Position numbers and translations under genes: made by a program
Notes under the pieces: generated by a model
Told to the model about the DNA's origin: nothing
What the model saw: the letters and a program-made list of their open reading frames with translations, nothing else
Databases searched by the model: none
Shown: one piece after another, positions 8,961 through 64,000 of the stretch
Layout of the letters: each line of letters begins with the position of its first letter
Position numbering within the stretch: position 1 is the first letter of the stretch
DNA from: Alkalibacillus almallahensis
GTDB taxonomy: Bacteria; Bacillota; Bacilli; Bacillales; Alkalibacillaceae
NCBI RefSeq assembly: GCF_011761495.1
Contig: NZ_JAASRU010000002.1
Coordinates: forward strand, 211,612 to 275,611
Length of the DNA: 64,000 bases
Direction of reading: 5' to 3'

Positions 8961-8982
8961 AATAAAAACATTTTAATAAGTA

Positions 8983-9175
8983 GCTATGTTAAAGTATAGT
9001 GTTGATTTAAGAATAGTTTAGCACTGAGTTGTTGAATTGTGAGAAACGAAGGTGGCGACTCCTGCGGGAACAGCACGAGTCTCGAGACCCCGCAGGAAGC
9101 GTTTTTCTTCCGAGGAGGCTCGAGCCGTGCCCGCGGAAAGCGTCCACCGATAGTGGATCACAATATCAACAACGG
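8983..9175 (+). repeat. Palindromic intergenic repeat, copy A
   Basis: Imperfect terminal inverted repeats (9028-9042 and 9158-9173) bracket a GC-rich core (65 of 98 bases in 9051-9148) in otherwise AT-rich DNA. Inner arms include CCTGCGGG pairing with CCCGCAGG and a GGCTCGAGCC palindrome. A left flank starting GCTATGTTAAAG is shared with copies B and D. It has no ORF of its own. It lies between the hisS promoter and T-box. Confidence 0.85.
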
Positions 9176-9194
9176 AATATAATATAACTTAATA

Positions 9195-9453
9195 AGTAAA
9201 ACCGACGAAGGAAAAAGTAGTGGAAACCGAACGATTGCAGAGAAGGTTTATCGTGGCTGAAAATAAACCTATCCGTTCATTTCATGAAAGACATTCTGGA
9301 GGTGTCGTGCTGAACCACACTTGTCTAGTAAGTACGATCGCGATTAAGCGTTATGTTAACGAAGCGAAAGCATATGACAATATGCTTTAATCAGGGTGGC
9401 AACACGGGTGAACCTCGTCCCTATCAAATAATCATTTGATAGGGACGTTTTTT
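9195..9453 (+). promoter_or_regulatory. T-box leader of hisS-aspS, aspartate-type
   Basis: A T-box riboswitch that would sense uncharged tRNA and control read-through. It has the stem I AGAGA element (9240-9244) and a specifier region TGAAAGACATTCTGGAG in which the codon aligned with the alaS leader is GAC (9290-9292), aspartate. The T-box motif AGGGTGGCAACACGGG starts at 9393. Its TGGC (9397-9400) would pair with a tRNA ending GCCA, the usual tRNA-Asp end; bacterial tRNA-His usually ends CCCA. A terminator (stem 9416-9447 plus T-run) competes with the antiterminator. A histidine CAT codon overlaps the specifier in another register. Confidence 0.85.
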
Positions 9454-26476: not shown

Positions 26477-26523
26477 TCGATTTCTTTACGTAAAAGAATA
26501 TGCAATAGGTGTCTAATTATAGT

Positions 26524-26954
26524 GCTATGTTAAAATTTAGTGTCGATTTCCAATGATTTAGCAGTTAGTTGTTGGATTGTGTGAAGCGAAGGTGGCGACT
26601 CCTGGTCGACTAAGAGCGGTCACGTCCTGCGCCTGCGAGTACTCGGCGCAGAATAGTCGAAGAAGCTTAGGAAATCAGCTTTTGTGACCAACGTCGACAT
26701 TAGGCCGTCCGGGCCGTCACGGGAAAAGCACGTGTCTCGAGCCCCCCAGAGGCCCACAGGATGTGGGTCACTTCGGCGTTTGTGATTGACGTCCGGCACT
26801 TAGCCGAAGTTCATTTAGCGGCCGAGGAGGCTCGAGCCGTGCCCCTGCATAGAAAACACTGTGAAAAACGAACGTAGTGAGATTGAACAGATGTTGCACC
26901 TGTGCCCTATGGGTAAAAGCGTCCACCGGTAGCGAAACACAATATCAACAACGG
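26524..26954 (+). repeat. Palindromic intergenic repeat, copy B (composite, enlarged)
   Basis: The outer parts match copy A: left flank GCTATGTTAAAA, inverted-repeat ends (about 26568-26583 and 26941-26952), the GGTGGCGACTCCTG arm, the GAGGAGGCTCGAGCCGTGCCC arm and the AAAGCGTCCACC arm. Three extra blocks interrupt it, about 26605-26719, 26750-26818 and 26844-26915. The first begins and nearly ends with GTCGAC; the second contains ACTTCGGC with GCCGAAGT as inverted arms. No ORF is evident. It fills the mltG-yrrM gap. Confidence 0.8.
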
Positions 26955-27012
26955 ACTTTTAGGAAGCCATGTAATAAATTAGACAACATTTGAAGTACTG
27001 ACGGAGGTCATT

Positions 27013-38808: not shown

Positions 38809-38828
38809 GTAATCGGCTATATTTATTT

Positions 38829-38994
38829 CCGTTGTTGATATTGTGATCCGCTAACGGTGGACGCTTTCCGCGGGCACGGCTCGAGCCTCCTCGGCCGAAA
38901 AGCATGGCCTGCGGGGTCTCGAGACACGTGCTATTCCCGCAGGAGTCGCCACCTTCGCTCCTCACAATTCAACAACTCAGCGCTAAATCAATAT
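38829..38994 (-). repeat. Palindromic intergenic repeat, copy C (inverted)
   Basis: The reverse complement closely matches copy A through the GC-rich core. Terminal inverted repeats GTTGTTGATATTGTGA (38831-38846) and TCACAATTCAACAAC (38962-38976) enclose it. The CCTGCGGG/CCCGCAGG hairpin, the GGCTCGAGCC palindrome and the AAAGCGTCCACC arm are all kept. The outer left flank is shortened. It sits inside the yqeH-aroE gap of an otherwise compact operon. A 71-codon frame across it is judged spurious. Confidence 0.85.
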
Positions 38995-39037
38995 TTAATT
39001 ATAAAAATAAAGAAGCTAAACAAAGGGTGTTACGTTT

Positions 39038-46812: not shown

Positions 46813-46936
46813 GGCTCTATTAAAGCTTAGTGTCGATTTTTAAATTGTGTAGCAGAGAGTTGTTGAATTGTAAGTAGCGAAGTTGTCGTCTCCTGTGGAA
46901 AGCGTCCACTGACAGCGGATCACAGGACTTTAACAA
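46813..46936 (+). repeat. Palindromic intergenic repeat, copy D (core deleted)
   Basis: The left flank GCTCTATTAAAG and the GTTGTTGAATTGTA end match copies A and B. The arm then jumps from CTCCTG straight to GGAAAGCGTCCACT, so both inner GC-rich hairpins are missing. The right end has decayed to GGATCACAGGACTTTAAC. It lies directly after comEC. Confidence 0.75.
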
Positions 46937-46945
46937 AGCCAAAAT

Positions 46946-63904: not shown

Positions 63905-63962
63905 AGGCTCTAAAATATTTGTTGGGGTAGATACACAATTTAGCGTGAAGGTTTGATGGTGG

Positions 63963-64000
63963 CCGTTGGCATCATGTGATCCGCTTACGGTGGATGCTTG
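63963..64000 (-). repeat. Palindromic intergenic repeat, copy E (partial, cut by window end)
   Basis: CCGTTGGCATCATGTGATCC followed by GCTTACGGTGGATGCTTG matches, with several changes, the outer end of copy C (ATTGTGATCCGCTAACGGTGGACGCTTTCC). The rest lies beyond the window. Confidence 0.6.

Follow-up and report, generated by a model that had tools for sequence, protein, structure and literature searches.

Which element accounts for the near-identical GC-rich blocks that recur in the intergenic DNA of this stretch, and how are they maintained? The whole stretch analysed, hereafter the window, comprises 64 000 nucleotides of Alkalibacillus almallahensis (bases 211612–275611 of contig C2, itself 275611 bases long). 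From its letters alone, five copies (A to E) of one non-autonomous, MITE-like or structured-RNA element had been described. The shared blocks were found in all five places, far above chance: BLAST of copy A against the own genome (2.71 Mb) gave at least 46 matches (40 of 106 candidates were scored), and the arm motif, at up to three mismatches, occurred 110 times versus 15 times for a reversed-pattern control.

Copies, outer ends and target sites

The genome was found to hold at least 92 copies, namely 72 with arms of the window type (paired left and right arms in the fetched stretches and the window) and 20 others; copies D and E are additional to these, and a marginal match at C1:8630 also lies outside the count. 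Further copies, as expected by the sequence-only reading, were thus present, and its figure of hundreds genome-wide was too high. The covariance model of the core matched 76 cores in the genome at E≤1e-3; 21 of them did not belong to the 72 elements, and of those 21 all but one (20) were fetched. Elements of the kind represented by copies A to D (type I) measured 205–472 bp where seen, the plain ones about 153 bases from arm to arm, and the copies read contained no long ORF (the ORF scan covered the window).

The shared blocks had been placed correctly, and the limits of all five copies were redrawn. Copy A (8982–9189, plus strand) is a plain IS1595-type MITE of 208 bp without modules, bordered on the left (8974–8981) and on the right (9190–9197) by the 8-bp target duplication TAATAAGT, as judged from the sequence and from comparison with the empty site in a relative (G005); its conserved core (9053–9148, plus strand; G000:C2:220664–220759) was the genome's best match to model R1 (101.7 bits). 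Copy A lies directly upstream of a T-box leader (9196–9425), which is followed by a histidyl-tRNA synthetase gene; in G005 the copy A site is empty, yet another plain element is located directly downstream of the T-box leader. Copy B (26523–26968, plus strand) is a MITE carrying modules M1, M1b, M2 and M4. M1 (26605–26719, plus strand) is split by the nested M1b (26630–26682, plus strand, assigned from the sequence), and unsplit M1 of other copies matches Rfam family RF01690 on the same strand; M2 (26753–26819) lies on the minus strand, and M4 (26845–26916, plus strand) was delimited by eye. Copy C (38815–39017, minus strand) is a plain MITE with much decayed ends, whose core (38856–38951, minus strand) corresponds to the model match G000:C2:250467–250562 and whose G005 ortholog carries M1, M3 and M4. 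Copy D (46813–46940, plus strand) is a MITE from which most of the core has been deleted; its flanks AAAATATA and AAAATAAA agree at 7 of 8 positions. These four belong to one element, as had been proposed; copy E (63906–64000, minus strand) does not. It is the right part of a different (type III) vehicle cut by the contig end, shares the inner blocks, and ends in GGCTCTAAAATATTTGTTGGGG, the ISL3-like vehicle end, which was also matched in ISL3-family loci.

The GTTGTTGAATTGTGA arms, taken earlier for terminal inverted repeats of about 15 bases, proved to be internal. The true outer ends of elements such as copies A to D lie outside them and read GGCTCTGTTAAAG... and ...CTTTAACAGAGCC, both being present within five mismatches in 54 of the 72 elements. 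The 8-bp flanks of these 54 agreed at 5.59 of 8 positions on average, versus 3.31 when flanks were re-paired (highest of 5000 re-pairings: 4.04), and perfect flank repeats numbered 13 for a length of 8 bp, with no more than one for lengths of 5, 6, 7, 9 or 10 bp. A transposase sharing the ends was found in relatives: GGCTCTGTTAAAG stands at both ends of the IS1595-like elements L115, L122, L125 and L127, and L115, L122 and L127, autonomous relatives with a homologous transposase, combine the same ends with perfect 8-bp repeats. An intact homologue of the transposase from the same genus (L131) scored 202.7 bits for NF033547 (cut-off 75), and the same ends were present in an Alkalibacillus genome (L159). 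The own genome holds a decayed copy (L071) with transposase remnants between type I ends, and L072 shares its tail; a small ORF with a DUF4190 domain (L071, 1480–1752) is a possible passenger gene. An IS6-like origin of the ends, which had been our presumption, was dropped because the IS1595-like partners carry identical ends.

Empty sites were sought in G005, where 34 of 93 elements (one without flanks) were located in the fetched stretches, which are part of that genome; 30 of the 34 were of type I. Fifteen of these 30 sites were empty, and the joined flanks aligned to the empty site without gaps in five of the 15. The sites of copies A (61 of 62 flank positions, no gaps) and B (53 of 63, the target duplication having decayed) were among these 15; the site of copy D (gap of 2) was also empty.

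The description as non-autonomous and MITE-like is thereby borne out by the inverted ends, by target duplications that measure exactly 8 bp, by the empty sites and by IS1595-like autonomous elements whose ends match. As a vehicle, type I is an ordinary MITE that probably depends for its movement on an IS1595-family transposase acting in trans, and it resembles IS1595-family MITEs (NF033547/PF12762) in its outer ends, its 8-bp target duplications, its shortness and its lack of a long ORF. Unlike these, it holds an order-wide folded core and plug-in modules that also occur in differently ended elements. Profile searches of the own genome with PF12762, IS1182 and ISL3 models gave no match and no intact transposase, so that current mobility is only putative.

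The folded core, its modules and its vehicles

The core folds as a long hairpin with branches. Covariation was strong in a set of 84 distinct sequences drawn from 78 loci: pairing holds in 93.9% of cells, both sides have changed in 16 of 20 pairs, and 301 double-change cells were counted versus 78 in shuffles. This recount used loci that did not come from the exact-match search with the core's right half, although BLAST or the model itself had served to fetch them. Alignment A1 comprised 56 and the model alignment A2 52 of 78 diverse sequences (from 104 candidates among 127 found). In the exact search, conservation of the right half is partly due to selection of the matches, and the matches listed include a few metagenome bins of other phyla. 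By eye, the base stem is wholly different between genomes with its complementarity kept. In genome G101 (L280, L284, L288) a divergent core retains the GACTCC, GAGACCCC, GAGGAGGCTC and GGAAAGC blocks, and its second helix differs (TAGAGCA..TGCTC). Of the earlier term "structured-RNA element", the structure is supported by this covariation; an RNA function is only likely.

With 14 candidates scored in each genome, the covariance model had matches at E≤1e-5 in 235 of the 299 genomes sampled from the order and in 95 of 116 genera. A BLAST search with copy A matched 97 of 149 relatives; what relatives beyond the closest ones share is the core alone, without the ends. In a sample of 398 genomes of the phylum the model matched four: the own genome, two others from its order and a fourth that belongs to its class.

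Within the own genome the core was also found in vehicles with other ends. The 20 fetched cores outside the 72 elements were sorted by eye into 14 of type II and six of type III. Type II copies show IS1182-like ends (seen by eye), and their end GAGGCTGGGACAAAA stands at both ends of four of 30 IS1182-family loci (L361, L363, L364, L371). The type III end was found in 11 of 30 ISL3-family loci, at one end only per locus, six of these loci having above-cut-off transposase matches. In two genomes of the same genus, decayed ISL3 transposase fragments (L410, L412) lie no more than a few hundred bases from core elements (G002:C1:65008 and G003:C1:592131). Near-identical cores were present in the IS1182-like and ISL3-like vehicles of the own genome, and we infer that each of the three vehicles is moved by a transposase of the corresponding type (IS1595, IS1182 or ISL3).

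The modules M1, M1b (nested in M1), M2, M3, M4 and M5 occupy fixed internal sites, M5 consisting of 21-base-spaced repeats. Plain elements made up 34 of the 72 and module-bearing ones 38, in 18 combinations with plain counted as one. M1 to M4 also occur in type II and type III vehicles (L353, L350, L355, L356); a further module beginning CCCGGTAAAGGAAACAC has so far been seen only in the type II copies L351, L352 and L355. Two modules exceed the gathering threshold (35 bits) of Rfam RF01690, the Bacillaceae-1 RNA introduced by a 2010 paper (PMC2864571): M1 on the forward strand (40.7 and 43.0 bits) and M2 on the reverse strand (51 bits in the window). The chassis itself gave no RF01690 match. 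RF01690 differs from the repeat in that here it supplies only a plug-in part, which may lie on either strand, and in that it is found outside the chassis as well: it was present in 84 of 149 relatives, and among 21 RF01690 loci examined, four lay within a recognisable chassis (one of them in the own genome) and L262 probably did (by eye).

Comparison of orthologous sites

The 15 occupied type I sites located in G005 comprised nine with the element in the same orientation and six in the opposite one. At all nine same-orientation sites the two copies differ in their modules, the richer copy being now that of the own genome, now that of G005. Two copies drawn at random at the observed module frequencies would be alike in roughly one case in four (our own arithmetic), and the absence of agreement in nine sites is therefore compatible with complete loss of memory. 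The core was closest to its own ortholog at none of the nine sites, the ortholog ranking between 5 and 63 of 72 by a measure that disregards gaps; the arms, re-measured with normal gap costs, were closest to their ortholog at seven of nine sites on the left and at seven of nine on the right, two of the latter being ties. One of the nine, C2:170826, has arms that were not best matches and may have arisen by a separate insertion. Of the six opposite copies, that at C2:207299 shares its mutated left end with its counterpart, which suggests that the element was inverted in place; C6:148402 represents a different insertion point, and the other four share their position (by eye).

The account preferred, at a probability of about 0.6, is that of a MITE family, likely moved by an IS1595-family transposase, with a modular folded core that is conserved across the order and appears to be passed in place from copy to copy by gene conversion. 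An IS1595-family transposase would likely supply movement of the miniature transposons in trans, homologous recombination between dispersed copies would swap their cores, and such swapping would probably also cross from one transposon family to another. Gene conversion between copies would be the simplest process. The unusual feature would be one folded modular core common to differently ended mobile elements and rewritten in place.

A bolder version is advanced only tentatively, as possible rather than probable: the core would be a folded, modular, gene-free cassette without ends of its own, which hitchhikes on three unrelated transposon families, overwrites in place the cores of other copies, and is assembled from interchangeable hairpins, some of them catalogued as separate ncRNAs.

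Function of the core and rival explanations

An RNA-level function of the core is likely, to judge from comparative evidence: the core would be kept because it folds as RNA on the GGTGG...CCACC strand, probably within longer host transcripts. The chief rival, which we regard as rather doubtful, has the hairpin act as DNA, the near-palindrome folding on single strands or extruding, being cut, and being repaired from another copy, so that biased gene conversion spreads the core without any RNA function; an SbcCD-type nuclease is a candidate for the cutting. Replacement of the core at every same-orientation shared site would follow from this, as would the six opposite copies among 15 occupied sites together with the apparent inversion at C2:207299. 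Half-changed pairs are few within the genome, which also suits repair from a template. The RF01690 modules, lying on both strands of one chassis, fit badly with a single functional RNA strand and speak on the same side. So does the lack of a signal relative to genes: the neighbour classes (42 tandem, 11 convergent and 8 divergent, leaving out nine of 71 elements that overlap a predicted ORF and one without neighbours) resembled the background of the window; 27 elements were oriented like the gene and 15 oppositely, likewise without a clear signal, so that no cis role is evident.

Three observations weigh against a purely DNA-level hairpin. Conservation between families extends to unpaired bases and internal loops. 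Order-wide, the wobble pairs favour one strand, with 44 G–U versus 26 A–C cells on the GGTGG...CCACC strand, and 43 versus 13 without one pair that is mis-registered in divergent rows (a post hoc omission); p-values for these counts are indicative only because the rows are related, and within the own genome wobble and A–C cells stood at 7 versus 5, with no strand signal. Finally, tsr24 (Rfam RF02577), a small RNA of S. aureus whose expression is given in its Rfam entry, aligns with the core on the wobble-favoured strand, including GACUCC...GGAAAGCG, in three of ten loci scanned, at 32.1, 29.2 and 25.4 bits, which is below the threshold of 50.

Independent mobility of the modules, with site-specific recombination taking them into and out of the chassis at fixed sites, is considered improbable. 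By eye, M1 adds exactly 60 nt at a single point; the scaffold around the modules has hardly changed at C2:64407 and C1:75534, and RF01690 occurs in many other contexts, all as expected of mobile parts. At most sites, however, scaffold bases differ together with the modules, the core is never closest to its ortholog, and M2 and M4 replace chassis bases with no clean insertion (by eye). Very improbable is the view that these are ordinary MITEs whose hairpin is kept perfect by templated repair and whose core serves neither host nor transposon: ends, target duplications and copy number are typical of MITEs and double changes with few intermediates agree with it, but relatives other than the closest share the core without the ends, most of the order's genomes contain the core, and the internal loops have persisted where templated repair would have removed them.

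Among known systems, the REP/BIME elements of enterobacteria are likewise mosaic, palindromic intergenic repeats in many copies; they are tied to a Y1-type transposase and are not known to have transposon ends of the present kind. A search of the open-access literature by text terms found no description of the repeat or of its core, a result that speaks for those terms only. The nearest described kind, going by description, is that of the bcr1–bcr18 repeats of the Bacillus cereus group, which two papers (PMC3446304, PMC6542083) present as high-copy and intergenic, some being MITE-like, transcribed or of conserved structure; the latter (PMC6542083) describes bcr repeats as specific to the B. 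cereus group, with TTTAT-linked mobility.

The repeat links RNAs that are catalogued and unexplained (Bacillaceae-1, possibly tsr24) to one mobile, order-wide architecture and suggests that some ncRNA families of Bacillales are parts of shuffled transposon cargo. Genome annotation, the reading of RNA-seq data and structure-based RNA discovery in Bacillales would be affected. The repeat also provides a natural setting for the study of dispersed copies that appear to overwrite one another, and quickly enough that at none of the nine sites compared is the core closest to its ortholog.

The core was also sought in extrachromosomal DNA. No match was obtained with the exact core string against viral contigs or with the BLAST query against phages, and the plasmid searches returned three and two records. 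Five core matches without annotated features were found on a 66.6-kb plasmid of Radiobacillus kanasensis (NZ_CP088021.1).
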